A stretch of 64,000 nt of DNA from Faecalibacterium sp. I3-3-33 (lineage in GTDB: Bacteria; Bacillota; Clostridia; Oscillospirales; Ruminococcaceae): positions 124,001 to 188,000 of the forward strand of contig NZ_CP094469.1 in assembly GCF_023347295.1 (NCBI RefSeq), read 5' to 3'. A model generated the notes under the pieces. The model searched no databases. It saw nothing but the letters and a program-made list of their open reading frames with translations, and was not told the DNA's origin. The translations under genes were made by a program, and so were the position numbers. Below, in pieces: positions 13,029-42,287 of this stretch (positions are counted from its first letter, which is position 1; every line of letters begins with the position of its first letter).

Positions 13029-13043
13029 TCAAATGCTCCTTTC

Positions 13044-17653: not shown

Positions 17654-17680
17654 GCGTACTTGATAATTTTTAGGTTGTGT

Positions 17681-24343: not shown

Positions 24344-24357
24344 AATCACCTAGCAGG

Positions 24358-24456: not shown

Positions 24457-24507
24457 AAACCCATACTTTTTGAAAATCCGCTTTTCGCAGCCAAAGGAGG
24501 ATGCACC

Positions 24508-24972
24508 ATGAAAAAAGAGATCGAAGCCTTCGTCAACGCAGCCAACGAGCAGGAGTTGGAAGCCGCATGGAATAACCTCTCGGCAGAGGAACAGCGAGTT
24601 TTCGAGCAGCTCATGGAGGAAGAACCACCCGAAGATGCACTGGCATTTTTCGCACAGCTGTATGATGATGCCCCGAAAGAGCAGACCAGCGAGACTGTGA
24701 ACATCTCCGAAAATGAAATCTATTTCAAGCGGAAGCCCTTGACCGAAGAGCAGAAGAAACACAGCTCTTATGTGGACGAGAACGGCAACCTCCATGTCAA
24801 GAACCTGTCCGCCTTCTGGATTCCAGAACTGACCACCACGGAGAAAGTCGGTCACACCACCTACACCGTGACCGGCAGCTATGAGGGCAAGGAGTCCTTT
24901 TTGAAGAAGCTGGAGCGCATTGTTGCCAAGAACGCCCAGCAAAAATTTGAAGATGAGGGTGCAGACGAATGA
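24508..24972 (+). CDS. TnpW-like transposon-encoded protein with extra N-terminal domain
   Basis: The 154-residue protein has an acidic helical N-terminal half (EELEAAWNNLSAEEQRVFEQ-like, about 8-60). Its C-terminal segment, KVGHTTYTVTGSYEGKESFL followed by a helix, resembles TnpW proteins that accompany TnpX-type recombinases. TnpW proteins are usually about 60 residues, so this would be a longer form. The ATG at 24508 follows AAAGGAGG. Its end overlaps the upstream extension of the recombinase frame. Function unknown; the TnpW link is tentative. Confidence 0.5.
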   Translation: MKKEIEAFVNAANEQELEAAWNNLSAEEQRVFEQLMEEEPPEDALAFFAQLYDDAPKEQTSETVNISENEIYFKRKPLTEEQKKHSSYVDENGNLHVKNLSAFWIPELTTTEKVGHTTYTVTGSYEGKESFLKKLERIVAKNAQQKFEDEGADE

Positions 24973-25055
24973 CAACTGCGCCCAATTCTGCTATACTTGA
25001 CCCGGTAACCAATCCTGTACCGACAGTTGCTCCACAGAGTAAGGAGGACACAACA

Positions 25056-26693: not shown

Positions 26694-26706
26694 CCGAAGT
26701 CACGCC
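26683..26706 (+). terminator. Short hairpin at the recombinase stop codon
   Basis: GGCGTGAC-cgaa-GTCACGCC forms a perfect 8-base stem overlapping the stop codon. It lacks a T-run, so it may be a processing hairpin, with the stronger terminator at 26811 doing the termination. Confidence 0.4.
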
Positions 26707-26810
26707 AAATCTTCCCCATTTAGGGAGCTTTTGCAAATACTGTTTTATGGGAACTCTGCTACTGGACGCACCCTGCCAAAAGCCACAGACAACAGCGATC
26801 TGTACAACAG

Positions 26811-26848
26811 GGCGTTCCCCGTCGGGAACGCTCTGTTTCTCTTTGCTG
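26811..26848 (+). terminator. Intrinsic terminator after the second recombinase
   Basis: CAGGGCGTTCCC-cgtc-GGGAACGCTCTG makes a stem of about 12 bases followed by TTTCTCTTT. It closes the recombinase transcript. Confidence 0.75.
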
Positions 26849-26992: not shown

Positions 26993-29900
26993 TCAAGAAA
27001 GGATGTCGGAGGGATTGTTGGCGCTGTAAAAACTGCTCTTACGAGCGTTGTTCTTTCCTTGCTGTGCTTCAAACTCCTTGTGGAGGGCTGCCTGTATGGC
27101 TTTGTCGCGCTTTTCGGAATCTGCGGCACGCTTCTTAAACAGTGCGGCCTTCTTGGTCTCGCCCTGCTGTTTGAGAATTTTTGCACAAAAACGGTATGCG
27201 ATGGATATTTCCCGTGGCGGAGTACCCCCTGATTCGAGGATCTGCTCTGCTGATGCAATTGCGGTCATGTAGTACTGAAATGCCAGCTGTTGATCGTAAT
27301 CTCGCGCATGATTCCCGAAGATCCAATAGTCCTCGCAGGTCAATTTCTTTCCGGTCTGTTTTGCTTTCTCCTCCAAATATTTGTCCTTTCGGAGCCATTC
27401 TGCGGCGTGCTTTCGGTTGTAATGATCTGCCGCTTCATAATAAAGACAATTTAGGCTAAATGTGCTGCAAAGCGCAGAATAGTAGGTGCAGATCTCGGAG
27501 AAGAAATCTTCCGCATCGTTGTCAAAGTGTTTCAGAACAAAGGCTTCTCCTTCGGCGGCGATATCCAGGACATGGCGGACAAACGCTTGGTCAAAAGAGC
27601 GGTCAGGATCTTGGCGGATAAGGCGGTCAACGCAGGAAAGATAGATGTCTTTCCCTAAGTTCCGGTATTCCTCCGCATGTTCACCGGCAAGCGCCTCCTC
27701 TTCTGAGAGCGAAAAGAAAAGCGTCTCCAGTTCCGCTTCTTTCTCAAAGCTTTTTGCCTGATCTTCACGGCTTGCCGTTCCGACATAAGCATCGCGCAGT
27801 TCTTCCAGTTCATGCACCCGCTGCCAGATATCCCGCTGTTCATCCTGAGGGGCTAGCTTTTGCGTCAGCAAAAGGCGCTTTAAGCGGCAGCGTCTGCATA
27901 TGACTTCGATATCGATAACACTGTCGGAATCATCGTTGAGATAGAACCACTTGCTTTCTGAATAGTGATCCAAGGCTTTGCCCAGCCATGCCGCTTTTAT
28001 CGCATCCGGGACAAAAGGCAGGTCTGCCGCAGTTTCATAAAGGCAGCCAAGGTCGTATTCAAAATCATAGTTCGGATCTTTGGGATAAGGATCAGCCCGG
28101 ATGGTCTCGGGGGTCGTGGTATAGCCGGTTTCTTCCAGCAGCTCCACATAATCCGTGAAGGAACGCTCCAACTGCGCAAAGAAAGCGCTGCATTCGTCCA
28201 CAGAGGGGGCTAATTCGTTCAGGATAAGCTGGCGGATCAGCGAATGCGTCGTCAGAAAATAGATATCCTTGTTTAACCGGTTCCGCCCGATCCAACCGCG
28301 TTCGACCAGCTCGATCAGGGCGTTCTGTTCCTCCGGCGTTTCTCCATCGAGAAAAAGCTTGGTGTCAAGCCCCTTGGGGGGAAGCAGCACCGTATGGCAC
28401 AATACCGTGCGATATGCGCCGGTCATCCGGCTCAGGTCAAATAATACTTTCAGATGACCGTAGATCGTATCTTTTGTGTAGCCGCGGTCTTTGTCGCTGG
28501 TGACAGGCCGCTGCTTCAGGGACTGGAGATCGTATTGCTTCAAAGCGTCCAGTACATCCTGCGCAGTCAACCTGCCCCAAGAACAGCGGATGCTCTTTGC
28601 AATGAGATGACAGGTCAAAGTGTGGCCATGGACTGCAAGGATGAGTTCGCGGAGCGTGGACGCAAGGCGGGGGTCCTCTTTTTCCGTAATTTGCAGTTCT
28701 TTCAGCATCATTTTCAGCAGCAGCTCTTTCGGCAGAGGACAAATCTCCACGGAAGAATCGCCCTCCGGGATGAACCGCGTAGTGATAATGAGGTGAGGCC
28801 CACCCAAATTGATCAGATCCTGATAGGCGGGTTCGCGGCGGAGGTCGTCGAGCGTTTGGCTGTTGCTGTCGAAGTTGTCCATCACGACTACGCTGTCCGG
28901 CCCCATTGCCGCCAGAAGCTTTAAGTTTTCGTAATAGTGCTCTTCCTCCTGCTGCTGCAAGGACAGATGGGGAGTGGAGGGCGTATACCGGTAGTTGGTA
29001 AATTCCAGATGCAAAATCGTGTCCCGCACGGATTGCTCGTAGTTGAAAAAAGCAACACGCATCCCGTCCTTCTTGCACTGCCGCAGAAGGGCGCGGGCGG
29101 TCTCCGTTTTGCCCAAGCCGCCCAGACCATAAAGGAAGATGGGACGGACGCCGGAATCCATTTGTTTGCGGATGGCCTTCAATTCGTTATCGCGGCTGTG
29201 CGGGATAAAGCTCTCCGGGCTGGAAAGGTTCTCTGCCAGCGGGAAACGCGGCGCAGAAAGCTGCTCGATGAGGGCGTTTATCTCTTTCAGCATTTCAGCC
29301 ACAGGGATGCGCTTTTCCGGGTCTGGTTCTGCGGCGGCAGAGAGGATATGATTCAGCTGGGGCAGCACAGGCCGCGCGGAGGGAACGGTATCGGAAGGAT
29401 AGATCTCTGCGGGCTTCAATTCCTCTGCCAGATCCTCCGGGAACTTCCGGTATGCTGCCAGCGCTTCTTTTCGCAGCAGAAGCCGCAGCAGGACGCCGAC
29501 GGAATACACGTCTGCCGCAGGGGTCAGACAAAATGGCTCGCCGCTGCGGGCACCGGTAAAAATTTCCGGCGCGCAGAACAGGGGTGTGGTGTAGAGCTTC
29601 TCGCTGGGCAGGATCGGCGCGGTCTTACCGTTGGGAGCGTCCAGCAGGCGCGCAGAACCAAAATCCAGAAAGACTGCACCGCGCAGCGTACCGGTATGCA
29701 GATCGCCGTCAATGAAAAGGTTCCCTAAGGAAATGTCTCCGTGGATCGCCGTTTTATGAAGCGTTGCAAGGGCATCCAGGATCAGGCGGATCAGATGCAG
29801 GGTGGTCAGAATATGCGGCGCAGCGATGGAGCGCGGCTCGTCCGGCATCAAAGCACCGAAAGGGTGCTCCTTGTCCCGGGGATAGGCGGCACACTCGGCA

Positions 29901-30379
29901 AGAAGATCGGACAGGAAAAAGCCTTTGGAAGGGTTCAGCGTGGGCAGATACAGAAAGGTGCAGGGCAAAGCGGTGCCGTCAGCGGAGCGATGCACGGGCT
30001 CTTCGGGCTGGGAGATGGAACAGACCTCCAGCTGCTCCAAATGGGGCAATGCGTGGAAGGAACCGTTATAGGCCAGCTGGCTCAGTTCCAGTTCGTGCTG
30101 TGCCATCCGCTCCAGCCGCTGGTAAAATGCCTGCCGCAATGCGGGAGAGGCATCCGGTGCGGCAAGGCCGGGGTCCAGCGCGACCCCGTTCACGCGGACA
30201 CAACCGGCGGGGTAAAATTCTTTAAGGGTAACATCCAGCGAGGACCCGTCCAGATGCGCGGAATAAAGGATCGCGCTTCCGCCAATAGAGGTGCTGTGCA
30301 GGATATGAAAACGCTTTCCGTCTGTGGTGTGCAGAACTGTGCCGTCTTTCAGCGGAACGCGGTCGTTGTATGCGGCCAT
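26993..30379 (-). CDS. Ser/Thr protein kinase fused to a STAND (NB-ARC-like) ATPase and helical C-terminus
   Basis: This is a 1128-residue cytoplasmic protein. The kinase domain (about 12-375) looks intact: glycine loop STSIGGSA, Lys53 in TLKEFYP, catalytic HGDISLGN at 213-220, DFG at 239-241 and an APE-like CAPE at 269-272. A STAND ATPase follows: Walker A GLGGLGKT at 418-425, Walker B VVVMDNFD at about 497-504 and the NB-ARC-type LIITTR at about 530-535. A winged-helix region and a long helical, TPR-like C-terminus (about 760-1110) come next. STAND proteins switch from a closed to an oligomeric form when the C-terminal sensor binds a ligand; here the output would be phosphorylation. An AAAGGAGG box precedes the ATG. 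It is the last gene in an operon with PP2C and YbjN-like genes. Confidence 0.85.
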   Translation of the reverse strand: MAAYNDRVPLKDGTVLHTTDGKRFHILHSTSIGGSAILYSAHLDGSSLDVTLKEFYPAGCVRVNGVALDPGLAAPDASPALRQAFYQRLERMAQHELELSQLAYNGSFHALPHLEQLEVCSISQPEEPVHRSADGTALPCTFLYLPTLNPSKGFFLSDLLAECAAYPRDKEHPFGALMPDEPRSIAAPHILTTLHLIRLILDALATLHKTAIHGDISLGNLFIDGDLHTGTLRGAVFLDFGSARLLDAPNGKTAPILPSEKLYTTPLFCAPEIFTGARSGEPFCLTPAADVYSVGVLLRLLLRKEALAAYRKFPEDLAEELKPAEIYPSDTVPSARPVLPQLNHILSAAAEPDPEKRIPVAEMLKEINALIEQLSAPRFPLAENLSSPESFIPHSRDNELKAIRKQMDSGVRPIFLYGLGGLGKTETARALLRQCKKDGMRVAFFNYEQSVRDTILHLEFTNYRYTPSTPHLSLQQQEEEHYYENLKLLAAMGPDSVVVMDNFDSNSQTLDDLRREPAYQDLINLGGPHLIITTRFIPEGDSSVEICPLPKELLLKMMLKELQITEKEDPRLASTLRELILAVHGHTLTCHLIAKSIRCSWGRLTAQDVLDALKQYDLQSLKQRPVTSDKDRGYTKDTIYGHLKVLFDLSRMTGAYRTVLCHTVLLPPKGLDTKLFLDGETPEEQNALIELVERGWIGRNRLNKDIYFLTTHSLIRQLILNELAPSVDECSAFFAQLERSFTDYVELLEETGYTTTPETIRADPYPKDPNYDFEYDLGCLYETAADLPFVPDAIKAAWLGKALDHYSESKWFYLNDDSDSVIDIEVICRRCRLKRLLLTQKLAPQDEQRDIWQRVHELEELRDAYVGTASREDQAKSFEKEAELETLFFSLSEEEALAGEHAEEYRNLGKDIYLSCVDRLIRQDPDRSFDQAFVRHVLDIAAEGEAFVLKHFDNDAEDFFSEICTYYSALCSTFSLNCLYYEAADHYNRKHAAEWLRKDKYLEEKAKQTGKKLTCEDYWIFGNHARDYDQQLAFQYYMTAIASAEQILESGGTPPREISIAYRFCAKILKQQGETKKAALFKKRAADSEKRDKAIQAALHKEFEAQQGKNNARKSSFYSANNPSDILS

Positions 30380-30410
30380 GGGGATTCCTCCTTTATACTT
30401 CTTTGGGCAT

Positions 30411-30416
30411 ATTATA
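30411..30416 (-). promoter_or_regulatory. Possible internal -10 box for the kinase-STAND gene
   Basis: A consensus TATAAT on the minus strand lies in the 68-base gap between the PP2C stop and the kinase start, about 30 bases before the start codon. No matching -35 at normal spacing is clear (TTGACG is too close), so use of this promoter is uncertain. Confidence 0.3.
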
Positions 30417-30447
30417 AAACGTTTATCGTCAAAAAGAAAGGCGCGGC

Positions 30448-31140
30448 TCAGGAAATTGTAACGATGGCGGCGCTGTAATCGTCAAGGGGATGCTGTTCGT
30501 CCAGATAGCACTCCAGCTCCGGGCCGGAAAAGGGACAGAGGAGCCGGTCTTTCGGAAGTTTGCTTCGCAGCAGGTCGTCTGCGCCATCGGTAAGCAGAAG
30601 GAATTTTCCCCGCACAGGCCGGAGAGAACGATATACTTTCAGGTGCTGCATCATGTTGGTGTTCATGGTCAGATAGGTAGAATGCGGCGCGATCCCGCAG
30701 GAAGGGGCAGAGATCGTTGAAAATGCGGCTGCCTCCGCGCCCGACGGCTGCATCAGGATGCAGCCATCGCCCAGATGGGCGCAGAGATAGCGGCCGGTAT
30801 CGTCCGCAGCAAAGACGATCAGGGTCGCTGCCAGCGCTTCCGGTTCAACGCCCTGCTGTTTGGCAAAGGCGCGCAGTGCCGGTTGGAGAACGGCGCAGAT
30901 CTTCCGGCGCACGGTGTCGGGGTCGTCCAGCAGCAGGTCGTAAAACTGCTCGTAAAACATCCGGGCAGTCAGGGTGACGATCTGCTGCGCCGCTGCCAGA
31001 CCATGGGACGCGGTGCTGCATCCATCGCTCAGGCAGACCGCGATACGGTCACGGCTGCGGATGCCGAACAACTGATCCTGATTCTTCTCGCCGTTTTTCA
31101 GGTGGAGGCGGCCGGGCTTTGTAAAACTGTAACATTCCAT
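30448..31140 (-). CDS. PP2C family protein phosphatase
   Basis: The 230-residue phosphatase has the PP2C metal-site motifs in order: KNGEKNQDQLFGI, IAVCLSDGCSTASHG, CAHLGDGCIL, KFLLLTDGADDLL and DDYSAAIV. These place the acidic residues that hold the two Mn/Mg ions. It has no membrane helix. I use the ATG at 31140; a frame extending to 31272 would overlap the upstream gene's 3' end and has no family sequence. It sits between the YbjN-like and kinase-STAND genes on one strand, so it probably removes phosphates placed by one or both kinases. PP2C/kinase gene pairs are a common bacterial arrangement. Confidence 0.85.
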   Translation of the reverse strand: MECYSFTKPGRLHLKNGEKNQDQLFGIRSRDRIAVCLSDGCSTASHGLAAAQQIVTLTARMFYEQFYDLLLDDPDTVRRKICAVLQPALRAFAKQQGVEPEALAATLIVFAADDTGRYLCAHLGDGCILMQPSGAEAAAFSTISAPSCGIAPHSTYLTMNTNMMQHLKVYRSLRPVRGKFLLLTDGADDLLRSKLPKDRLLCPFSGPELECYLDEQHPLDDYSAAIVTIS

Positions 31141-31162
31141 ATCCGTGTTGGCTCCCTTCAGC

Positions 31163-31894
31163 TTAGTCCTCGTTTTCGTCCTTGTCCCCGTCAGCGCTAT
31201 CGGGCTCTTTAGAGATGTGCAGCAGCTTTTCAAAGAGCTGCTGATCCTCTTCCGAAAGTTCAGGCGCTGCACCGGGCTCTTCCGTCGCTTCCTCGTCCAG
31301 CTTTACCGCAAACGGAAAGTGGAACGGCTTGTCCGCGGAACCGTCCTCCTTGGAACTGTCCTCCGATTTCTCCGTCGGATGGATGGAACGCAGGAGCTCT
31401 TCCAGAAAACCGTCCACAAGGGAGGAGTCCGGGGCGGACGGCGCGGGCTTTTTCGGCTCCGAGGCATCCGTGAGCAGGCGAAGCAGATCCTTGCAGTGGA
31501 GGTCCATCATAGCGCAGGCATACGTCAGTGCACGGGACAGAACCGCGTCCGTGGGGATGCGCTCAACGCAGTCGATATAGATATGGAACAGCAGCCGACC
31601 GCTCATGGAGTTCAGATGGAAGCAGCCGTTCTTTATCGTGCTGTTAAGGTCCGAGATAAACGCCTTGACCGGAGCGCGGTGAGGGGGATCGATGATCAGC
31701 GGAAACTCGGCGTCCAAGAGGATGCAGTCGTCCTCCATGTGAAGAGAAAACATGGTGAAAAAGAACGAGGAGAACGCTGCATAAATGGGGAAATGGAAGC
31801 AGTCGGCATCTTCATCGAACATATACTTCATGTGGTTCTTGTCAAGATGCTCCTGAACGCGCTGTACAAGTTTCTGCGAATGGTTGATCTTCAT
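31163..31894 (-). CDS. YbjN-like small protein with acidic C-terminal tail
   Basis: A 243-residue protein. Residues about 8-140 alternate strands and helices (FHFPIYAAFSSFFFTMFSLH, GRLLFHIYIDCVERIPTDAV) in a pattern like YbjN/type III secretion chaperone-fold domains, which bind protein partners. From about 145 onward the sequence is low-complexity and highly acidic, ending DGDKDENED. It is the first gene of the minus-strand operon with PP2C and the kinase. The family call is by pattern only. It may act as an adaptor or substrate of the kinase. Confidence 0.5.
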   Translation of the reverse strand: MKINHSQKLVQRVQEHLDKNHMKYMFDEDADCFHFPIYAAFSSFFFTMFSLHMEDDCILLDAEFPLIIDPPHRAPVKAFISDLNSTIKNGCFHLNSMSGRLLFHIYIDCVERIPTDAVLSRALTYACAMMDLHCKDLLRLLTDASEPKKPAPSAPDSSLVDGFLEELLRSIHPTEKSEDSSKEDGSADKPFHFPFAVKLDEEATEEPGAAPELSEEDQQLFEKLLHISKEPDSADGDKDENED

Positions 31895-31949
31895 AAGAAA
31901 TACCTCCGTTTTTTGGGGTTCGGCGGGCGTTTCCCGCTTCAGTGAGTAC

Positions 31950-31980
31950 AGTATAGCGTAAGCGGATACCCTGCCCCCAA
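31950..31980 (-). promoter_or_regulatory. Candidate promoter for the YbjN-PP2C-kinase operon
   Basis: On the minus strand TATACT (31950-31955) lies 19 bases from TTGGGG (31975-31980), about 55 bases upstream of the first gene. The -10 is good and the -35 weak. Confidence 0.4.
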
Positions 31981-32060
31981 AAAATTAGTTTCGCAGTCAA
32001 CCTGCATAAGAAACTGGTAAAAAGTTGTGCGTATTTGCCATAGAGCCGAAGGCTTAGGTG

Positions 32061-32069
32061 TGGTACACT
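32061..32069 (+). promoter_or_regulatory. Candidate extended -10 promoter for the second kinase-STAND gene
   Basis: TGG followed by TACACT (32064-32069) fits an extended -10 element, 33 bases before the TTG start. No convincing -35 at 17 bases. The two kinase operons are therefore divergent and share a control region of about 200 bases. Confidence 0.35.
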
Positions 32070-32101
32070 GAAAAAAACGGCGAACAGGGAGGAATGGAAC
32101 A

Positions 32102-35100
32102 TTGCGGAAGAAATGGGCGGAAGGGACTGTCCTGTACACACGGGATGGAGCAGAGTACAAAATAACAGCCTCCAACGAAGCGGGCGGGACGGCGATCATT
32201 TATTATGCGGAAAAAGCCGGCAGCGGCATCCGCGCCGTGCTGAAGGAGTTTTACCCCCAAGAGTGGGAGCGCCGGAAGGGGGTCCCGGTCGAGCGTGCGT
32301 GTGTAGACAGCCCGGACGAAGATCCGGGTCTGCTGAGCTGCTATGAAAAGCTTGCCAAGCAGGCGGCGCGGGAAATGGAGATCAGTCAGGAGGTCGCGCG
32401 GGAAACCGTTCATGTGTGGCCGGTGCGCGGGATGCTGGAGGTGCAGAGCATCCGGGAGCCGGACGGCACGGTATGGCAGGCAGAGGGCACGCTCCCCTGC
32501 TGCATTCTGGAAATGGACAACCTGAACCACAAGGACGGCCTGTGGTTACAGGATATCCTGCGGGAAGCCGGAAAGAAAAAGAGCAAAGAAACCCCTTTGG
32601 GCAATTTGCAGCCGAACAGCAAGCCGGTGCTGGCGGTGCCGCCGCTGCAAGTGACGCTGATGCTGGTCTGGCGTCTGCTGATCCTGCTTGCAAAGATCCA
32701 TGAGGCGGGCTACCTGCATGGAGATATCAACTTGGGCAATGTGTTTTTGGCAATGGATGATAAGGGCGCAAACGTTCTGAACGCCATGCTCATTGATTTT
32801 GGCAGCGCCCGCGCACTGGTGGACGGGAAAACTGCGCCGCTCGGCGAAGAGTCGGTCATGGCGACCCCGGGCTTTGCCGCCCCGGAGCTGAAGGGCGGCG
32901 GTGAGCAGCGCCTGACCCCCAAGGCAGACGTTTACGCAGTGGGCAAGCTGATGCACTGCCTGCTGGATCAGAACATTCTGGAAGCGCTGCGGAAGGGCTG
33001 GTATTCGGATCTCGAGAGGGATCTGAAAGCCCCGACGCTCAATGCCAGCGGCATCAACGACCCGCAGCTCACACCGGCGGTGCAGAAAAGTCTGGATCAG
33101 ATCCTTTCCGGCGCGGCAGAAATAAAGCCGGAAAAGCGCAGCTCCGTGCAGGAAATGATGGAACAGATCATGCAGCTGTACCGCAAGATCGAGCCGCCCG
33201 CTTGGCAGATGAGTCTTGGCCTTTTGCAGCTGAACGGCGACGAGGTGCTGGGGCGCGATAAAGATATCAAAAAAATCGAAGCAAAACTGTGGGCCGAGGG
33301 AAAACTGGTGCTGCACGGCTTTTCCGGCATCGGCAAAACCAAGCTGGTAACGCTGCTGGGGCACAAATGGCAGAGGAACTATCCCTGTTCGCAGGTGTAC
33401 TATGCCTTTTACCCGGGCAGCATGACCGGCCTTGCGGTGGATACGCTGGCGCGGAATATGTCCACGGTGGCATTTACCGAGCAGAAGGACGGAAAGGAAG
33501 TCCCCCGCCCTGTGGCCGGGATCATTGATGATATGTTCCGGGAACTGAATGCCCACATGCACGAAAACGACCTGCTGATCATCGACAATGTGGATGACGA
33601 CACACAAGAGTACTGGGATTCTGTGGTGCACGAGGAAACGGTGCAGGGACAGACCGATCTTTTTACCCGTCTGTGCCAGCTGAATTGCAAGGTGCTGTTC
33701 GTGACCCGTCTGGATGTGTCGAATGTCACCGGGATCGTTCCTTTCGAGGTGGACAGGCTGGAATTGGAGCCGCTGCGCGCGATCCTGCGCGAAAACAGCA
33801 AAGATGCCAAGGGGCGCAGTGATGCGCAAAAGCGCAGTGACGAAGAGCTGGACAGGCTTATTGCGTTGGTAGACCGCCACACCATGACGGTGGATATGAT
33901 CGCCCGCACCATGCGGGAGAGCCGACTGACCGTCCCGGAGATCTACAAGGAGTTGAGCTGTGACGGCTATGGCTCGGGCGCCTTTGTGGAGATCAGCGGT
34001 CAGAAGGACACCGACTATTCAAAAAACCGGATCGAGGGGCATCTGATCCGGCTGTTCCGTCTGGCAAATTTTAATGAGTGGGAGCAGGATATGCTGCGCT
34101 ATGCGCAGCTCATCGGCGAGAACAGCGGCATGTACGAAACGCTGTTTCTCTCCTGCTGCCCGCATGAATCGAAAGACGAAAACACCAAGAACCTTGAGGC
34201 GCTGAATCATCTGCTCCGGCTGGGATATGTGCAGCAGAAAACGGAAGAGGATTCAGAAGAAGTTATTTTAAACCTGCATACGCTGGTGCGGGTGGTGGCA
34301 AGGAAAGTGCTGGCGATTACGCTGGAACAGTGTGATATCTTTTTGAGTGCGTTGCCGCTTCCGTATAGAAGATATGGCGTGCAAATTTCTCCTCAGAACC
34401 GTATTGCGATGGCAGAAGCCTATATTCAAGCGCGAAAAATTGCGGAGAAAGAAACATTTCTGTTTGGCTATTGGTCCAGCTGTGCGGCGGCGTGGCTTTT
34501 TAATGTAAAAAATCGCAGTCGAAAAGAAAATTATGTTCTCCGTATAGTGGAATATCTTCCGGATGCAATGTGCATCTACAATGCTTTGAATGACGGTTTG
34601 CTGTCTGTTGCGGGTGTCTCGGATATACAGAAAAAAGTAATTTGCCTACACTGGAATTTGTGGAATGTTTTGAGCTATGTGACACCTGAGTATGTACGGA
34701 AAAACTATGAAACGACGGAATTGGCGCGAGAATATTGGACAGTCTGTCTGGAAGAGCCAGATCGAAAACTGACGTATCCGGTGCTGTTTCAGGAATATGA
34801 AAAGTATAGTGAACGGTTAGAAGAAATTAAACGAAAGCTTTCGGAGGAACTTCATCCGGATAATTATTTGGATTACTGGCCTTATACGGATATCGCCAGC
34901 AATGAAAAACAGATTCAGGTTGGAAAAGAATTGCTGGAACATTTTGAGAGAAAAACAAATGAGGATTACGAACATTATCTGAGAATCTGTAAATGGCTTG
35001 CAGAAAAAGCAAAGGAAATTGACTATGAGAAAAATCCAGATAAAGTTCAGATTTATGTACAGGAAGAAAAACAAGCGGCACAAGAGTATCTGGAATTTCT

Positions 35101-36802
35101 ACAAGAGCAGGAGCCAATAAACTATGAGGAAATTATAGAACTTTGCTGGGATCGTATAGAACGTTTTGAAAAATTTTTTGCATTTTTTATTTCGGATGAT
35201 GAGGAAACGCTTCGAGAAGAATCTGTTCAGTATGAAAAAATTCTTCTGGAAACTCGGTGTGATTATTCGGACTTTTTGATGAAGAAAGAACCAAGTGATG
35301 TAATTGCGCAGATGGAGTGCTGCGATTATATAGCATATCGGTTTAAGGATGAAGAAAAAAGCCGACAATATAAAAACCGTGCCTTTCAAGTTCAGTTGGA
35401 TTTTGTAGAACATCCGAAAAAGTATCTCCCAATACAGGATCCACTGGAAGAGATGAGGGTTTATTGGCAAGTTGCAGATTGGGCAAGCCAACAGCCCAAT
35501 AAAGAAGCATTGAAACAAAAACTTTGCAAAAAAATATTAAAAGTTGGACAAGCAAATGAAGAAAGGGTGCATATAGGCTTAACGAAGAAAGAAATGGATA
35601 ACGATCCCAAAAATGAAGAAGAAGACTACATAGTTCCAGCCAGTTTAAGCGAGAAAGTAAACTATGAAGCAATTCCAATGCGCTATAGGCGCAAAAAAGC
35701 TGAGTTTTATGATATCTTACGAAAAGCAGCTTATCAGCTAGGAGAAGAAAAAAGAGCAGAAATATATGCAGAAAAGTGTAGATATATAATATATGGAACG
35801 CATAGACGAGATCTTTTTTCGAGACGGAAGGTGATAGGCGACAAGATTTTTTATGAACAACCGAAGCGTGTATCCATCATTGACGAGGAAACAAAGTCTC
35901 TTCTGAGTGATTTACAGAATGGGGAGATGACAAAGCAAAAAGACCGGAAGTATTGCCAGGCGATTTTTGAGAAAGCAAGGAAGAATAATGGTGGCAGTAT
36001 AGCATCTGAATTCATGGATGACTTACAGAAAATCGTGGATGCTTATGAAAAAGTAAAAGATTATGACAAAGAACTGAAATGGCTCAAGCAAATCATCCTT
36101 TTGCAGTCTGCAGGTCGGTGGTTTGATAATCCGGTCGTGACAGTAAGAACGCCAGACGGAAAAACGACGACGGAATTTTATCCGGGGCATTACTTTATGG
36201 AGCCGTACTATGAAAGAGCAATTTGTACGGCACGGAAAAATCACGATGAAAAAAGTGTGATTGAACTGACAGAGGAATTGTTTGATATTCTCTCAAAGGA
36301 CAATCAGGCAAGAAATCGTGATGGACTGTTTCCAAGGATTTCGGATTTGCTGATTTGGCTGCGGGCATGTGGTCTATACATTTATTGCTGCTGTGTACAA
36401 AAGAAATATGACGGTGCAAAGGATGCTTTGCTTAAAGCAGAAAAAGACTTGGGAGACTATATTAAAAACTGGAATAGAGGGATGACCAAAGTAACTGAAC
36501 AAGTCAAACAGGCTGAGCAATTTGAGGAACAATGGTATGCGTCTGACTTACAAAACTACGTGTCGATTATAGAGGAGTATAATAAGCAAAAAGAACCGAT
36601 GTTCCGTTTTTTTGAAGAACAGTTGTCTTTACTAAAAAAAATTCTTCCAGAGCATCATCCTATTCTTTATATGCAACGTGACTTGCAGATTTGGTTCTGT
36701 GAAGACGAGGAACAGCTCAAAACGCTTGAAACACTGAACGAAAAGGAAAAGCTCATTGCGATTGAGAATGGATGGGCTTCTTGGTGGGAGCCTGACACCT
36801 GA
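32102..36802 (+). CDS. Second Ser/Thr kinase-STAND ATPase fusion with long AT-rich C-terminal region
   Basis: At 1566 residues this is a paralogue of the protein at 26993-30379. The kinase (about 8-360) has Lys48 in VLKEFYP, HGDINLGN at 206-213, DFG at 232-234 and APE at 260-262. The STAND ATPase has Walker A GFSGIGKT at 406-413, Walker B LLIIDNVDDD at about 491-500 and LFVTR at about 532-536. From about residue 716 the C-terminus is long, helical and lysine/glutamate-rich, and its DNA is much more AT-rich than the front half. The start is a TTG nine bases after GGGAGG. It is divergent from the YbjN-PP2C-kinase operon. The C-terminal half is the likely sensor and appears to have a different history from the front half. 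Confidence 0.85.
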   Translation: MRKKWAEGTVLYTRDGAEYKITASNEAGGTAIIYYAEKAGSGIRAVLKEFYPQEWERRKGVPVERACVDSPDEDPGLLSCYEKLAKQAAREMEISQEVARETVHVWPVRGMLEVQSIREPDGTVWQAEGTLPCCILEMDNLNHKDGLWLQDILREAGKKKSKETPLGNLQPNSKPVLAVPPLQVTLMLVWRLLILLAKIHEAGYLHGDINLGNVFLAMDDKGANVLNAMLIDFGSARALVDGKTAPLGEESVMATPGFAAPELKGGGEQRLTPKADVYAVGKLMHCLLDQNILEALRKGWYSDLERDLKAPTLNASGINDPQLTPAVQKSLDQILSGAAEIKPEKRSSVQEMMEQIMQLYRKIEPPAWQMSLGLLQLNGDEVLGRDKDIKKIEAKLWAEGKLVLHGFSGIGKTKLVTLLGHKWQRNYPCSQVYYAFYPGSMTGLAVDTLARNMSTVAFTEQKDGKEVPRPVAGIIDDMFRELNAHMHENDLLIIDNVDDDTQEYWDSVVHEETVQGQTDLFTRLCQLNCKVLFVTRLDVSNVTGIVPFEVDRLELEPLRAILRENSKDAKGRSDAQKRSDEELDRLIALVDRHTMTVDMIARTMRESRLTVPEIYKELSCDGYGSGAFVEISGQKDTDYSKNRIEGHLIRLFRLANFNEWEQDMLRYAQLIGENSGMYETLFLSCCPHESKDENTKNLEALNHLLRLGYVQQKTEEDSEEVILNLHTLVRVVARKVLAITLEQCDIFLSALPLPYRRYGVQISPQNRIAMAEAYIQARKIAEKETFLFGYWSSCAAAWLFNVKNRSRKENYVLRIVEYLPDAMCIYNALNDGLLSVAGVSDIQKKVICLHWNLWNVLSYVTPEYVRKNYETTELAREYWTVCLEEPDRKLTYPVLFQEYEKYSERLEEIKRKLSEELHPDNYLDYWPYTDIASNEKQIQVGKELLEHFERKTNEDYEHYLRICKWLAEKAKEIDYEKNPDKVQIYVQEEKQAAQEYLEFLQEQEPINYEEIIELCWDRIERFEKFFAFFISDDEETLREESVQYEKILLETRCDYSDFLMKKEPSDVIAQMECCDYIAYRFKDEEKSRQYKNRAFQVQLDFVEHPKKYLPIQDPLEEMRVYWQVADWASQQPNKEALKQKLCKKILKVGQANEERVHIGLTKKEMDNDPKNEEEDYIVPASLSEKVNYEAIPMRYRRKKAEFYDILRKAAYQLGEEKRAEIYAEKCRYIIYGTHRRDLFSRRKVIGDKIFYEQPKRVSIIDEETKSLLSDLQNGEMTKQKDRKYCQAIFEKARKNNGGSIASEFMDDLQKIVDAYEKVKDYDKELKWLKQIILLQSAGRWFDNPVVTVRTPDGKTTTEFYPGHYFMEPYYERAICTARKNHDEKSVIELTEELFDILSKDNQARNRDGLFPRISDLLIWLRACGLYIYCCCVQKKYDGAKDALLKAEKDLGDYIKNWNRGMTKVTEQVKQAEQFEEQWYASDLQNYVSIIEEYNKQKEPMFRFFEEQLSLLKKILPEHHPILYMQRDLQIWFCEDEEQLKTLETLNEKEKLIAIENGWASWWEPDT

Positions 36803-36809
36803 CAACAAA

Positions 36810-36840
36810 ACTCCCCCTGCGGAAGCCGCAGAGGGAGAAA
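36810..36840 (-). terminator. Terminator between the converging kinase-STAND and Lon-like genes
   Basis: CTCCCTCTGCGG-ctt-CCGCAGGGGGAG on the minus strand is followed by TTTTGTTGT, ending the Lon-like transcript. The same stem can serve the plus-strand gene that stops at 36802. Confidence 0.7.
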
Positions 36841-36858
36841 GCATCATTCTAAATCCGT

Positions 36859-39477
36859 TTACAACTCCATGCACTTTGCCCAGATCTCGGCCAGCGTATC
36901 CGCAAACAGGATCTCCATGCCCTGTGCATCGGCCTGCTCCCGGAGCTCCGGCGGCAGGTCGTCGCGGTTTTCGCCGGGCAGAAAAAGCAGCTTGCAGTCG
37001 GCGGCAAGGGCGGCTTCGGTCTTTTCCGGGATGCCGCCGACCTTTCCGACACTGCCCAGAAGATCGACCGTGCCGGTCAGGGCAAAGGTGCGGGGGACGG
37101 GCGTTCCGGTCAGCAGGCTGGCAAGCGCCAGCGCAATGGCGCAGCCGCCGGAGGCGCCGTTCTTGGGCTCATCGCCGCAGAAATGGATGTGCACCCCCTT
37201 GCCCTCCGGCAGTGTTTTGCCGGTCAGCTGTTCGGCGGCGGTCAGGGCGGTCTGCACGCTCTCCCGCAGAGCGTCCTGTGCAAAGCCGGTGATGGTAATG
37301 CCGGGGCGTTCCGTCAGAACGGCCTGTACGGCATCGCGCGAGCCGAAGCTCACACCGGCAGAGCTGCGCATGACTGCCAGCGTACTTACAAGCCCGGTCG
37401 TATCCTCCGGGAGGTGCGCCGGGTAGTGGTTCAATGCGGCGGGCGGGGCACCAAGCACGGTCTCCAGCAGCGCTTCGTTTACCGTCAGTTCCTTTTCCTG
37501 TGCCCGGTACAGGGTCAGGGTCTCGCACAGGCGGTTCAGCATGCTTTCCATGTCACGGCAGCCGGGTGCGCGGCAGTAGCGGCGCACCAAAAGGTCCGTG
37601 ACGTTTTCCGGGAACAGCGCATCGGGCAGGCCGTATTTTTTCAGCGCGGCAGGGAGCATGGCCTGCTGTGCAATGGCCTTTTTCTCGGCCAGCGTATAGC
37701 CGTACATCGGCATCAGGTCGCAGCGGTCCCGGAGAATGGGAGAGACCTTTTCCAGATCGTTTGCGGTCAGAACAGGGACCAGCTGGTGCAGGTCGATATC
37801 GCAGTCCAGATGCTTTTCGTAAAAACTGCGGTGGCCGTCCAGCAGGTCCAGCAGGGCAAACTGGGATTCTGCCGGCAGCTTGTCCACCTCATCCAGCAAA
37901 AGAACGGCACGGGTGCTGCCTGCGCGCTTGAGCGCCTGCGCAATGACACCAGCGCAGCTGTTGTTGTAAACGATGCTGGTGCCTTTCAGGTCGGCGGGCT
38001 GAAGCCCGGCGCAGCTGATCTTCTCGAACGGAAGGTTCAGGGACTGGGCAAATACACGGCAGAAGTGCGTCTTGCCCGTACCGGCGGGGCCGACAAAAAG
38101 CAGCGGACGGCCTGCCTCGTTGGAGGCTTCCATACCGGCAAGCCGGGCGCGCATCGTGTCCTTTACATTGTCCAGACCGATGATCTGCTTCACACCGCAT
38201 TCAAAGGAGGGCAGGTCGAACCGGAAGGGCAGCTGAGAGCGCTGGAAGCGTGCAATGTAGGAAAAGCGCTCCATGGCATCGGAACGATTGGTGCTGCTGC
38301 GCTCCGAGAAAGAGCCGCGGTTCTCGTTGATGGTCTGCATCAGCGCCTGACCGACCTTGCGCATACTGTCGGAATAGACCCCCTGACGGAATGCCAGCAC
38401 GTTCTTCTCGTATTCGCTCAGCTGTGCCGCGCCAAGGAATTTTTCAGCGGCAGGGATCGTGATGGGCAGCGCCGGGTCGGGCGCGTTGGAGGCGGCATGG
38501 AAAAGCCGCTCCACGCTGGTTTTCAGGTTCGTCATGCCCTCGTCCGGGCAGTAATGATCCAGCAGCCAGGGAAGGACGTCCGGCTCCAGAACAAGGCCGC
38601 TGCGCGTGTTGAGGGTGTCGAACAGCGCCTTGCCGAATGCGAGACGCTCCTCCCGCGTGGGTGCGGGCATGGCGATCACCGCGTCAAAGGCACTGATCAG
38701 GTCGGCGGGCAGCGAAGCGGTGCTTTCGGCTTCGGCGATGATGTTGGCGTTTACATGTACGGAGGTGCCAAGGTAAAGGTCGTGCACGGTATGCTCGCGC
38801 ACCAGCTGGATCAGCGCAGGGAACGGGTTGCCGTTCTGCCCGCCGAACGTAATGCGGTCTACCCCGGTAAACTGCAAAAGATCCGCCTGATCAAGCGCCG
38901 CATCCGCCAACATGCCATAGGTGGAATTGTTGTACCCGGATTCCTCTCCCGCCAGTGCGACGGGGGAGCTGATGGAACCGCAGTCGATGCGCCGCGGCTT
39001 GTAGTGTGCGGCGAGGATGTCGCCAAGCAGGGTCTTGCCGATGCCGGACGGGCCGACCAGCAGCACACGGAAAGGAACGGCAGTGCGGTTGGTGCGGCTT
39101 ACCAGATCCAGCAGGGTCTGCTTGGCGGGTCCACAACCGGTCACCTGTTCCATTTCGGTGCGCAGCGCCTCGATATCGACCTGACGAAGGATGTGAGGCT
39201 TCTGGCACTGCCCCAGAAGGATCAGGGCGCGGCGGATCTTGTCCGTGCCGCAGCTGTCCAGAATGGTCCGAACGTCGGAGGGATACAAAAACGCATTCAG
39301 CTGATAAAATTCATTCAGCGCCCTGACGTTCAGGTGAAAAAGCGGGTCGTCCAGTGCGTCCTTTTTGCAGTCGGACTGAAGATACGACAGGTGCATGGTC
39401 AGATGACGCCGCATGGCAGGGGTCATTTTCGAGAAATTTTCGGACATTTTATCGTGACTTTTTTCGAGATCGGGCAT
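36859..39477 (-). CDS. Tandem-AAA ATPase with C-terminal Lon-type (S16) protease domain
   Basis: The 872-residue protein has two AAA modules. The first has Walker A GPSGIGKT at 142-149 and a weak Walker B. The second has Walker A GPAGTGKT at 463-470 and Walker B LLLDEVDK at 526-533. The C-terminal domain (about 680-872) carries the Lon catalytic serine in NGASGG (about 776). The lysine in GGIPEKTEAA sits exactly 43 residues later, the same spacing as Ser679/Lys722 of E. coli Lon. It lacks the usual N-terminal Lon domain. The ATG at 39477 follows AAAGGAGG. It would unfold and degrade proteins in the cytoplasm. It is convergent with the second kinase-STAND gene and divergent from the helical protein to its right, suggesting a shared system. 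Confidence 0.85.
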   Translation of the reverse strand: MPDLEKSHDKMSENFSKMTPAMRRHLTMHLSYLQSDCKKDALDDPLFHLNVRALNEFYQLNAFLYPSDVRTILDSCGTDKIRRALILLGQCQKPHILRQVDIEALRTEMEQVTGCGPAKQTLLDLVSRTNRTAVPFRVLLVGPSGIGKTLLGDILAAHYKPRRIDCGSISSPVALAGEESGYNNSTYGMLADAALDQADLLQFTGVDRITFGGQNGNPFPALIQLVREHTVHDLYLGTSVHVNANIIAEAESTASLPADLISAFDAVIAMPAPTREERLAFGKALFDTLNTRSGLVLEPDVLPWLLDHYCPDEGMTNLKTSVERLFHAASNAPDPALPITIPAAEKFLGAAQLSEYEKNVLAFRQGVYSDSMRKVGQALMQTINENRGSFSERSSTNRSDAMERFSYIARFQRSQLPFRFDLPSFECGVKQIIGLDNVKDTMRARLAGMEASNEAGRPLLFVGPAGTGKTHFCRVFAQSLNLPFEKISCAGLQPADLKGTSIVYNNSCAGVIAQALKRAGSTRAVLLLDEVDKLPAESQFALLDLLDGHRSFYEKHLDCDIDLHQLVPVLTANDLEKVSPILRDRCDLMPMYGYTLAEKKAIAQQAMLPAALKKYGLPDALFPENVTDLLVRRYCRAPGCRDMESMLNRLCETLTLYRAQEKELTVNEALLETVLGAPPAALNHYPAHLPEDTTGLVSTLAVMRSSAGVSFGSRDAVQAVLTERPGITITGFAQDALRESVQTALTAAEQLTGKTLPEGKGVHIHFCGDEPKNGASGGCAIALALASLLTGTPVPRTFALTGTVDLLGSVGKVGGIPEKTEAALAADCKLLFLPGENRDDLPPELREQADAQGMEILFADTLAEIWAKCMEL

Positions 39478-39599
39478 AAAGCAGCCTCCTTTTGAATGGT
39501 CTGGGATCACGAGCGTTCCTTGGGAACGATACCAGATTAGCATACAAAAGAGACGCTGCCCGAAAAAATGTCGGAAGGCTTTTAGGTTATTTGAGATTT

Positions 39600-39630
39600 T
39601 TGAGACCAGATATAAAAGATGTGCTATAAT
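39600..39630 (+). promoter_or_regulatory. Promoter of the 501-residue helical protein gene
   Basis: A consensus TATAAT at 39625-39630 is preceded by TGC (extended -10) and by TTGAGA at 39600-39605 with 19-base spacing. It lies 60 bases upstream of the start codon at 39691. Confidence 0.6.
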
Positions 39631-39690
39631 AAGGGCAGTTGAATGGGGAGACTATACCCTTCAGCCAGAAATTCAGAGGAGGTCAACAAA

Positions 39691-41196
39691 ATGGAAGACA
39701 ACATGATGCCCCAAACGCGCGAATCGGAGCGGCAGCTGAACGAGTGGATCGAACAGACGCGGGATAACGAAAACGCGGTGCTGATGAATGCAGAAAATCT
39801 GCTGGAAACGCTGACGGATTGGAGAACGGTGATGACGCCCGGCTTCTGCGTCTGCCGTGCATTGCAGACCCATTATCCTGAAATTTTGGAAGGGCTGGAC
39901 TGCCCGGATCTCAAGCAGCTGGACCATTCGAGGGGATGGTCGGCAGCGGTCCGCCGTCAAGTTGCCCGGCGGCTGGAAGAAGCGCCGAATATTGGCCCTC
40001 TGCATGATGCGGCATGGGGCACGGTGCTGAACCGCGGTTATACGGAAAGCCGTGTTGGCTCGAAGAGCGAGATCTACAAAATGGCGACGGTTTTTCACCT
40101 GACGGATGAAGAGGTCGAGCGGCTGTTCATGCTCTACAACCAGAACTGGAACCCGCATAATCTGCTGGACGCTGTATTTCTGGCAATGCGCAGGCACTAC
40201 CGCGACAACCTTACATGGCGGGATATGATGGAGGTGCTCAAGGGCTTTTTGCGCCAGACCAATGGCACCCGGAACGCTGCTGCGGGCACGGAGAGCGGCG
40301 GCACGCAGGCGCTCCTCCGCATGGTCGATACCGTCCCGGATACGGAGGAGAGCCGGGCTGGTGATAGTGCCTTCAATGCAAAGCTGGTAGAAGAACTGGT
40401 GAAGAATGCCGACTCGCTTGACCAGGCAACGCTTATGGATGCGGACGGAACGGACCCGCTGTCCGGGCATTATACCAGCAATTACACGCGGGAGTACACG
40501 CGCACGGCAAGCTTGGCGCTCAAGGGGCTGCTGCAGGCACTGGTGATCCTCTTCCCGAAAGTCCCTCCGTATGTGCTGACGAAGGATGGCTTGCCGGAGG
40601 AACTTGCCGCGCTGTTTAATGAGATGTATGCCTATGTGGGCACCCGTGTGAATGACAACAACGAGGAGCACATGGAACGGGAAGATGATGCAATGGAGGA
40701 AAAGCTCCGGGCGTATCTGAATGGACGCTTGCGGTCTCTCCCGAATGAGGTGAGCCAGACGCTGAGACCGCTGCATGGCGCAGAACCCACGAACCGGGTA
40801 CTGGATCATGACGGCATCCTGCTGTTGGGCTGGTTTATGATCCTTGCAGCCAGATTCAACGAAGAAAGCTGGGAAAAGCTGGTCGAATATGAAAAGGAGC
40901 ATGAGGAAGACCCGGACGCAGACCTGTTCACGAAGAAGTCTGGAAGGCTCCTCCGGGAGATCGCAAAGATCGACAGCAGCAGCGATCCGAAGGAACAGAC
41001 GGAGCACATGGTCAAGGCGCTCAACGACCTGCTGAGTATTTTTGAGCAAGCAGGTCTGAAGGGTATCGGCCGGGTCTATCTGGCGCGCATGATGGATCGC
41101 CTGATCGTAGCAACGATGCTTTATGCAAGCACGCGCAATGACGTTTCCAAGAACATGGATCTGGTGGAAGCACTGCTTCATCCTGAGACCTGCTGA
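39691..41196 (+). CDS. Large helical protein of unknown function beside the Lon-like gene
   Basis: A 501-residue, acidic, all-helical soluble protein with no signal peptide or clear membrane helix. I do not recognise a family. A segment at about 105-150 (SRVGSKSEIYKMATVFHLTDEEVERLF) has the spacing of a helix-turn-helix or of repeat regulators that count L-E-E helices, but this is weak. The ATG at 39691 follows an AGAGGAGG box and gives MEDNMMPQTRESERQL. It is transcribed divergently from the Lon-like protease gene and ends at a strong terminator that also marks the right limit of the kinase/ATPase island. It might be a substrate, adaptor or regulator of that system. Confidence 0.6.
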   Translation: MEDNMMPQTRESERQLNEWIEQTRDNENAVLMNAENLLETLTDWRTVMTPGFCVCRALQTHYPEILEGLDCPDLKQLDHSRGWSAAVRRQVARRLEEAPNIGPLHDAAWGTVLNRGYTESRVGSKSEIYKMATVFHLTDEEVERLFMLYNQNWNPHNLLDAVFLAMRRHYRDNLTWRDMMEVLKGFLRQTNGTRNAAAGTESGGTQALLRMVDTVPDTEESRAGDSAFNAKLVEELVKNADSLDQATLMDADGTDPLSGHYTSNYTREYTRTASLALKGLLQALVILFPKVPPYVLTKDGLPEELAALFNEMYAYVGTRVNDNNEEHMEREDDAMEEKLRAYLNGRLRSLPNEVSQTLRPLHGAEPTNRVLDHDGILLLGWFMILAARFNEESWEKLVEYEKEHEEDPDADLFTKKSGRLLREIAKIDSSSDPKEQTEHMVKALNDLLSIFEQAGLKGIGRVYLARMMDRLIVATMLYASTRNDVSKNMDLVEALLHPETC

Positions 41197-41329
41197 TAGC
41201 GAGCTTCCGGTCTGCCGTGGTCACACCCCGGCGAAAGATACTGTTCCATCTCCCCTCTCGGCACCATCCGGGCACCGATGGGACTGAAGATCTACCGTAA
41301 CTTTGCACAAGATACAACCAAGGCACGGA

Positions 41330-41366
41330 AAAGGCCGGACCCATTCAAAGGGGTCCGGCCTTTTCT
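41330..41366. terminator. Bidirectional terminator at the right end of the island
   Basis: AAAAGGCCGGACCC and GGGTCCGGCCTTTT form a perfect 14-base stem with an 8-base loop, with A and T runs inside the stem ends. It can end both the helical-protein gene (+) and the AraC gene (-). Confidence 0.85.
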
Positions 41367-41402
41367 GCATACACGCGAAGAAAAACAGGCGCAGCGGTAA
41401 GC

Positions 41403-42287
41403 CTACTGCATCCGGTGCTGTGTGCGGTATTCGGCGGGGGTGATGCCGTACAGGCGGCGGAAAGTTTTCAGGAAGCTGCTGTAATCCGGGAAGCCACTCT
41501 CGGTGCAGGCGTTCAGGACGGAAACGCCCTCTTCCAGCGCCTTGCGGCAGTGCTGCATCCGCAGATAGGTCAGGTAATTGTGGATGCTCTCCATGGTGCA
41601 CTCCTTGAATGCGCGGGAAAGGTGCTCCCGGCTGGCGTAAAGTTCCTGTGCCAGCTGCGCGGTGGTCAGGGTCGGGTCCTGATAATGGGCCTGCAGGTAG
41701 GCCACCGCGCGCGCGACCAGCACACTGGTGCTGCTGGGGGCAGCGGTCTGTCCGCTGCCGGTGGCCTGCGTGATGAGCAGCAGCATCTCAGCGACCTGCG
41801 CCTCAAAAACGGTGTCCCGGATAGAGCCCGGCAGCTCCAGACTTTGCCCCATACGGACGAAAAGCCCCGCAAAATCCCACTTGCGGCAGGCTTCGCTGTC
41901 CAGCACGGTGAGCTGCTGCAGCCAGCCTGTGTTTTTCAGGTTCACGCGCCGACGGGTGGCCTGCCAGAGGGCGTCATCGATCTGGACGACCAGACGATCC
42001 GACTGGTCGTCATCAATGTTGAAGTTGCCGGAGTGGTAGACCTGAGAGGGAAAGTAGATCAACTCCCCCACATGGACCAGATACACGCTGCCGTCCACCG
42101 AGTAGCGCACCGTGCTGCCGCCGATGGGGAGCACCAACTCGTGATACGGGTGGGAGTGCACCACAGACTGCTTGTTTTCCCGGTTCGTGTACCATGCGAC
42201 CAGAAGCCGGGTGTTGCTCAGCCCCATCCGCGCCTGCGCTTCCGTAAGGACATTATCGATATAATGTGTGACCCGGTCGATGCCCAT
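41403..42287 (-). CDS. AraC family transcriptional regulator
   Basis: The 294-residue regulator has an N-terminal cupin-type ligand-binding region (about 25-150: HSHPYHELVLPIGGSTVRYS) and a C-terminal pair of helix-turn-helix motifs (about 190-290). The second motif has the AraC signature FPDYSSFLKTFRRLYGITPAEYR. It probably binds a sugar or sugar acid and controls nearby genes, most likely the divergent membrane-protein/TRAP/GH31 set, but no operator was identified. Confidence 0.92.
   Translation of the reverse strand: MGIDRVTHYIDNVLTEAQARMGLSNTRLLVAWYTNRENKQSVVHSHPYHELVLPIGGSTVRYSVDGSVYLVHVGELIYFPSQVYHSGNFNIDDDQSDRLVVQIDDALWQATRRRVNLKNTGWLQQLTVLDSEACRKWDFAGLFVRMGQSLELPGSIRDTVFEAQVAEMLLLITQATGSGQTAAPSSTSVLVARAVAYLQAHYQDPTLTTAQLAQELYASREHLSRAFKECTMESIHNYLTYLRMQHCRKALEEGVSVLNACTESGFPDYSSFLKTFRRLYGITPAEYRTQHRMQ

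Follow-up and report, generated by a model that had tools for sequence, protein, structure and literature searches.

A kinase-STAND island in Faecalibacterium and its recurrent partner gene: a candidate phosphorylation switch

Introduction

What might a bacterium do with two giant proteins that each fuse a Ser/Thr kinase to a STAND ATPase, and with a PP2C phosphatase encoded between them? The question is raised by an island of six genes, named here A to F, at positions 26993-41196 of a 64,000-nucleotide stretch of Faecalibacterium sp. I3-3-33 (hereafter the window; RefSeq assembly GCF_023347295.1, contig NZ_CP094469.1, positions 124,001 to 188,000, forward strand). A preliminary description, made from the letters alone, had proposed a candidate sensing or defence system in which the STAND part gates the kinase and the phosphatase holds it off. 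The computational analysis reported here indicates that the genes are real, encoding two kinase-STAND proteins (A and D), a PP2C phosphatase (B), a protein with a predicted YbjN fold (C), a Lon-type protease with tandem AAA domains (E) and a helical protein (F), and that the island is accessory. As far as sequence comparison can tell, its conserved core is a kinase-STAND gene with a partner gene of the family of F, joined by PP2C in a subset of the loci. STAND sensors and kinase/PP2C switches are already known, and the conserved kinase-STAND/partner pair is the main result.

Results

The host genome, a single contig of 2.99 Mb, holds two kinase-STAND places, A and D. According to Pfam and motifs, A (26993-30379, minus strand, 1128 aa) consists of a kinase (about residues 1-380), a STAND ATPase (385-745) and a C-terminal region (760-1128), and D (32102-36802, plus strand, 1566 aa) of a conserved part (32102-34381) with kinase (about 1-365) and STAND (375-745) domains, followed by 806 C-terminal residues (34382-36802) that make a candidate sensor. 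The two giant proteins with apparently active kinases of the preliminary description are borne out by Pfam Pkinase matches (7.7e-12 for A, 9.9e-15 for D) and by the retention of HGD and DFG motifs in both (HGD213 and DFG239 in A; HGD206 and DFG232 in D). Their STAND parts keep a Walker A motif (GLGGLGKT418 in A, GFSGIGKT406 in D) plus a TTR/VTR motif (TTR533 in A). Of the layout of a STAND sensor, with the NTPase between an effector and a C-terminal repeat or sensor region, the NTPase is recognised in D by nSTAND6, above its cut-off (1.2e-6), and in A, where AAA_16 and P-loop models stay below theirs, only through the homology to D, which in BLASTP runs across kinase and STAND.

The alignments show that the kinase-STAND part is conserved and the C-terminal region divergent. 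Among A, D and related proteins of G060 (Ca. Pseudoruminococcus merdavium; Acutalibacteraceae) and of the congener G632 (G, L and C with a number denote genomes, loci and contigs of the comparison), all six BLASTP pairs stop at residues 737-797, and A aligns with the others solely inside residues 7-779. The third-position G+C content (GC3) of D is 0.71-0.79 over residues 1-700 and 0.31-0.42 over residues 801-1566, the C-terminal stretch being the lowest-GC 2 kb of the window (0.408), and that of A falls from 0.65-0.74 to 0.53-0.56. The drop in D is the trace expected from sensor replacement, as in a swapped sensor, and is not general among the relatives. In other genomes the region carries repeats (Sel1 in G060, TPR in G898), and searches of the PDB with the C-terminal regions of A and D gave no credible match (best E value 0.35, for D), nor did a search of plasmids with that of D. 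These regions would probably be the ones that sense a trigger.

Matches to A occur in 33 of 247 genomes of the family, host included; a kinase-STAND profile found 11 of 391 genomes at 1e-30 in a class sample, and in a phylum sample, at 1e-35, only the host itself (1/329), with none among the 328 others. Around the matches, 25 loci were fetched and sorted into those with STAND but no kinase and those with kinase-STAND. A partner gene lies within three open reading frames (ORFs) of the intact kinase-STAND gene in all 15 fetched loci of other genomes, against none of the nine kinase-less STAND loci; the 15 are related by descent, and therefore no p-value is claimed. Excluded from the count are loci with little flanking sequence (L024-L031, L074-L079, L082), pieces truncated by a contig end (L083, L103-L106), L080 as a duplicate, and L102, and some of the 15 loci are on contigs of 6.6-12 kb; adding L024, where a cut partner is present, and L102 gives 16/17. 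The partner is mostly immediately upstream and on the same strand, with two ORFs between in L036. Homologues scattered without co-occurrence, or fixed at core-genome positions, had been named beforehand as the pattern that would speak against a system; for the core the opposite is found, with co-occurrence in the 15 loci and carriage on plasmids. A kinase-STAND scan of genome contigs returned the G060 locus and one weak kinase-only match, and a phage collection searched with the kinase-STAND part of D one short kinase-only match. Two contigs from the corresponding scan of viral contigs (L089, L090) were dropped, as they match none of the kinase, STAND, PP2C or partner profiles.

The partners measure about 350-410 aa (769 aa in G060), and none of four shorter ones scanned with Pfam reached a cut-off. 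Since the partner profile had been trained on most of these neighbours, members were also run singly: each of 14 members of the class of about 380 aa retrieves all the remaining 13 at E < 1e-3, and no ORF from outside the family comes below 0.02 (short duplicate loci left out, as was L050, whose identical sequence is present under another name). The family profile found nothing credible in the PDB (best E value 2.5).

F itself (39691-41196, plus strand, 501 aa) is where the preliminary description had put a divergent helical protein, and what that description missed is its probable kinship with the partners. F has no Pfam match, and its structure prediction is poor (mean pLDDT 54.8), so no claim is made about its fold. 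A profile of F and five relatives, searched against 802 ORFs, gave as its top two non-self matches the 769-aa ORF of G060 (5.3e-4), which adjoins PP2C and kinase-STAND genes, and a cut ORF on contig C21 of G632 (1.1e-3), which adjoins PP2C and STAND; the next match stood at 0.089. As a single query, the 769-aa protein finds a 662-aa ORF of G632 (3.2e-15), the cut ORF (1.2e-9) and two partners of about 400 aa (3.5e-6 and 2.6e-4). When the profile of F, its relatives and these three ORFs (769, 662 and cut) was compared with that of the partners of about 380 aa, a single comparison, the outcome was 94% probability over 310 columns (E value 1.2e-7). By eye, a Y-x5-D spacing at the C terminus is common to all ten members inspected. 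Because profiles are needed to see it, the link is weak to moderate, and at that strength F may be regarded as a divergent member of the partner family that travels with kinase-STAND genes. A scan of viral contigs for F found nothing.

The PP2C call for B (30448-31137, minus strand, 229 aa, or possibly longer with a GTG start at 31272) holds: it passes the cut-off of PF13672 (PP2C_2, 9.1e-21, 74.8 against 24 bits), and its NQD, DG and GD motifs, which in PP2C phosphatases supply the aspartates of the metal site, line up with the solved PP2C 5d2u. The core has a PP2C gene beside it in the window, in G060 and on contigs C21 and C201 of G632. The G060 protein, beside kinase-STAND and the 769-aa partner, is 31% identical to B over 210 residues; that of C21 (1.2e-35 to B) accompanies a STAND fragment and the cut partner, and that of C201, a weaker match (6.4e-6), a contig-edge kinase fragment and a partner. 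The G060 set is adjoined by a group of four ORFs (L033:14968-17976), one of which encodes a protein with an OmpA domain and another, judging by eye, a membrane protein. In G632, pieces of kinase, STAND or kinase-STAND genes are spread over five contigs (L102-L106), of which two also carry PP2C and genes of partner type, a spread that suggests a local expansion.

The other two proteins are of a different kind. C (31163-31894, minus strand, 243 aa) falls below the Pfam YbjN cut-off by sequence (0.012, 16.3 against 22 bits), and a profile search of the PDB returned nothing credible (best E value 0.25). Its AlphaFold model (mean pLDDT 60.6) scores 61-84 per ten-residue block to residue 140 and low in the rest, an acidic tail, and the seven best Foldseek matches of this model are YbjN/AmyR crystal structures (1.3e-5 to 5.8e-5), including 5fr7 and 6vu7, with YbjN-like and type III chaperone folds ranking next; a YbjN fold is what the model predicts. 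E (36859-39480, minus strand, 873 aa) has two AAA+ domains and a Lon protease domain (Pfam AAA 5.8e-20, Lon_C 3.2e-22), the first AAA domain being without the acidic Walker B pair (LLQFTG vs LLLDE in the second). Alignment to human Lon (7ksl) places a Ser-Lys pair at S777/K820, 43 residues apart, which we take to be catalytic. E scores 227 bits against the Lon model TIGR00763 (endopeptidase La), under its cut-off of 608, and weakly against the BrxL model of PADLOC (8.2e-4). The YbjN-like and tandem-AAA Lon-type assignments of the preliminary description are thereby upheld.

What did not stand is the treatment of all six genes as one unit, since the kinase-STAND and partner genes co-occur elsewhere and E and C are nearly specific to the window. 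The family of E was not found in the other 30 genomes of the genus, some only 77-90% complete, where matches were at the level of Lon or weaker, and pattern scans of genome and viral contigs for E found nothing; the host has another Lon-sized match at G000:C1:1726765-1728105. Beyond a close cluster, relatives of C are weak and scattered (5 of 394 genomes of the order, host included), and the four non-host places with C-like sequence (G595, G060, G350, G294) showed no STAND match in the stretch fetched, the one in G595 being separated by some kilobases from a STAND-less cluster of kinase, FHA and PP2C genes. Close relatives of F, E and C number 18, 12 and 28 proteins, and their largest clusters 1079, 1267 and 1019 member sequences (for F and E, the 7996 best candidates were scored). 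We infer that C and E are clade-specific local additions to the core. In G898 (L083:3321-6133), a STAND-TPR gene truncated by the contig edge precedes genes for a protein with an acidic tail and an AAA+ protein, which may be remote counterparts of C and E. The 333-aa ORF adjoining the STAND gene looks YbjN-like by eye, with no support from searches, and the AAA ORF, cut by the contig end, matches E at 2.2e-20, for which generic AAA/Lon similarity may account; with the E profile it scores 98 bits vs 222 for the Lon of G898, values that are not comparable in a cut ORF.

By orientation, the six genes form four likely transcription units (C-B-A leftward, D rightward, E leftward, F rightward) and lie where they had been placed before, with slightly corrected starts, those of E and F chosen to match the lengths of their relatives. 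The strongest terminator-like hairpin of a terminator scan (36811-36837, unstranded) occupies the gap between the convergent D and E, and a promoter scan was uninformative (12 sites vs 7.8 +/- 2.5 in shuffles).

The accessory status of the island is seen in its distribution and at its right edge. STAND-including matches occur in the host and G632 among the 31 genomes of the genus, 24 others giving a weak kinase-domain match and five none. Homology to congener DNA starts abruptly at 41411 (96.8% identity in G637, 85.7% in G171) or 41417 (67.0% in G617); the border is the 3′ end of an AraC-type gene, whose other side differs in three other species. At this edge (41328-41411, unstranded), the inverted repeat taken earlier for a bidirectional terminator does exist (41328-41365), but it is not among the hits of the terminator scan. 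On the left, the serine-recombinase element given as the other bound (23467-26822, plus strand, Pfam) does adjoin the island. It is about 3.3 kb long, its aligned copy ending at 26765 and an inverted-repeat match at 26822; elsewhere in a congener it recurs with 99.1% identity over 3,299 bp, and several other genomes of the genus have near-identical full or partial copies. As a separate multi-copy element, it is therefore a neighbour, judged unrelated to the function of the island and no evidence for its movement, and it was rejected as a carrier.

Beyond this element, a Trk/histidine-kinase operon is kept at 91-96% identity in eight of nine other genomes checked, and in the ninth, G617, it is partial (67%). 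The left end of this Trk region carries a short repeat (window 18300-18425) with many copies across congeners. Further left (3072-17605) lies a conjugative element with genes for a serine recombinase, NlpC/P60, TraG-type and type IV secretion coupling proteins, and about half of window 6000-18000 is some 81% identical to transfer regions of Enterococcus faecium plasmids. No prophage was recognised around the island, nor any BREX-type gene among 20 flanking proteins (Pfam).

Elsewhere, the core is also carried by plasmids. In pRUMAL01 of Ruminococcus albus 7, mobilizable by PLSDB typing, the partner (WP_013483441.1) and kinase-STAND (WP_013483440.1) genes are annotated as hypothetical and NB-ARC, near PIN/Phd toxin-antitoxin, BrxL, ThiF and Mov34 genes (the last three at L119:12901-16596). 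The pair recurs in the Butyrivibrio plasmid pCY186, which was found via the partner and is therefore not independent. Among 97 neighbour proteins (180-1100 aa) of the 15 loci, PADLOC recognised 47 families at 1e-12 or better, and the best 25 of these include PsyrT (2.8e-248), a type I methyltransferase (2.6e-242), DpdF (1.9e-94) and PsyrA (1.2e-89). Our guess, from motifs and plasmid matches annotated as RecQ helicase and methyltransferase, is that the proteins behind these matches lie in L046 and L036. One of the neighbours, searched against plasmids for a name linked to defence, gave no match.

Discussion

Does this composition correspond to anything already described? The preliminary description knew of no such system, and none appeared in the model sets and literature searched. 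No paper was found under kinase-STAND wordings, and none brought up by broader searches has a title or opening of its abstract that describes the set, the coverage leaving outside most subscription papers and preprints; the accessible parts of PMC13373217 and PMC13092281 describe no system of such composition. Among the NCBIfam matches listed (for E, the best 25 of 82), none names any of the six proteins at its cut-off. In PADLOC, A and D match in the kinase domain, A also weakly in the P-loop, E by AAA- and Lon-type models and B by one weak model, with no model for C or F. Avs proteins have an N-terminal effector, a central STAND and a C-terminal sensor, a plan that A and D, in which the sensor is putative, share with Avs and other STAND/NLR-like sensors, except that their effector is a protein kinase; no PADLOC Avs model matches either at E 0.1. 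Likeness to MADS mad6, PD-T4-6 and PglW is confined to the kinase domain, and A reaches only 40.9 bits against the MADS6 cut-off of 460. Like BrxL and Lon, E has AAA+ plus a Lon-type domain, but it differs in carrying two AAA domains and in retaining the Ser-Lys pair, whereas BrxL is without the protease dyad in the part of PMC12839542 available; a BLASTP of E against the R. albus BrxL gave no significant similarity. An active kinase beside an active PP2C is also found in predicted conflict systems, the actinobacterial GAP1-N2 neighbourhoods with kinase, PP2C and vWA described by Kaur et al. (PMC7159879, seen in part), which contain GTPase and vWA components that Pfam does not recognise in any of the six proteins.

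The explanation that we favour, with modest confidence, is that the island is an accessory, STAND-gated protein-phosphorylation switch, reset by PP2C and most likely used in defence. The likely logic of the preliminary description is consistent with the kinase and STAND motifs of A and D and the PP2C motifs of B. The C-terminal region of A or D would sense a trigger, upon which the STAND part may assemble through ATP-driven oligomerisation, gather the kinase domains and switch them on. The active kinase would phosphorylate targets, with F as the prime candidate substrate or else as an adaptor, and B would hold the switch off or reset it. C would probably act as an adaptor or chaperone, and E, as an extra Lon-type protease, as proteolytic output or reset. 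Such a device could protect against phages or against mobile DNA of other kinds, the cell ceasing to grow or dying when the kinases escape PP2C. A role in defence is plausible, and it is favoured because of the sparse distribution, the plasmid carriage, the compositional break in D and some defence-type neighbours elsewhere.

Several observations weigh against this explanation. A non-defence signalling role would give the same anatomy, and no defence gene was recognised among the 20 flanking proteins of the window (Pfam, two without match; no defence-model scan was made). The defence matches of the neighbours elsewhere have no control set and come from the best 25 of 47 families. The compositional break is clear in D alone, being milder in A, slight in L102 and absent from G060. 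The 15 loci share descent and are not independent, and L102, an intact kinase-STAND gene of G632 on a 5.6-kb contig, has no partner there. No member of the partner family is retrieved by F as a single query, F comes up only at 0.05 when the 769-aa protein is the query, and E and C are almost confined to the window. Finally, in 14 of the 15 loci, all of them with a partner, no PP2C turned up within three ORFs, so that it is the partner that constantly accompanies kinase-STAND, and not the phosphatase.

This last point also bears on a rather unlikely alternative, in which the island is a toxin-antitoxin or abortive infection cassette akin to the kinase-kinase-phosphatase (KKP) module, with two toxic kinases held by PP2C, STAND as the trigger, and C, E and F as accessories. 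KKP operates in this way, with the kinases as toxin, PP2C as antitoxin and the phosphorylation balance as switch (available part of PMC11341870), and the island does hold two Ser/Thr kinases and one PP2C of the same family (PF13672). However, its kinases are fused to a STAND ATPase and a large C-terminal region and come with a dedicated partner family, A and D have no FHA domain, and neither the contiguous kinase-kinase-phosphatase order nor the FHA on PfkB given in that part of the source occurs here; moreover, 14 related loci keep the partner and not the phosphatase.

Harder to credit is a stress or envelope signalling module, whose STAND-kinase would sense a metabolite or damage and tune growth, with PP2C as its ordinary counterpart, on the model of PrkC/PrpC-type pairs. 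YbjN and Lon are stress-linked families, kinase/PP2C pairs without STAND exist in the same family (L027, L029, L030), and the lack of recognised defence genes beside the island would fit, but a module of this kind agrees poorly with so sparse a distribution (G632 alone among the other 30 genomes of the genus, and none of the 328 of the phylum sample), with plasmid carriage and with the break in D. A chance cluster of independent accessory genes (the C-B-A operon, D, E and F) in one variable locus is improbable: the four transcription units, the differing compositions within D, and E and C not being found with the core outside the window, save the inconclusive G898 case, would suit it, but A and D are homologous, genes of B, F and kinase-STAND type recur jointly in G060 and, as fragments, in two G632 loci, and the largest clusters of F, E and C have similar member counts.

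Conclusions

Beyond the switch favoured for this island, a wider reading can be put forward only tentatively, namely that it represents an undescribed immune architecture of Clostridia, in which NLR-like STAND sensors with a reversible kinase effector in place of a nuclease, protease or NADase, a dedicated partner as substrate or adaptor and a PP2C reset would have their sensors exchanged between lineages, the second kinase-STAND gene, the YbjN adaptor and the Lon-type output having been gained in this species. If this were true, the partner and kinase-STAND genes would make a tractable two-gene core, present in plasmids of named isolates, Ruminococcus albus 7 among them, and it would become testable whether, in commensal Clostridia, a STAND sensor is able to trigger a reversible response instead of a suicidal one. 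In that case, bacteria would couple an NLR-like switch to reversible phosphorylation, in a manner comparable to the receptor and kinase relays of eukaryotic immunity.

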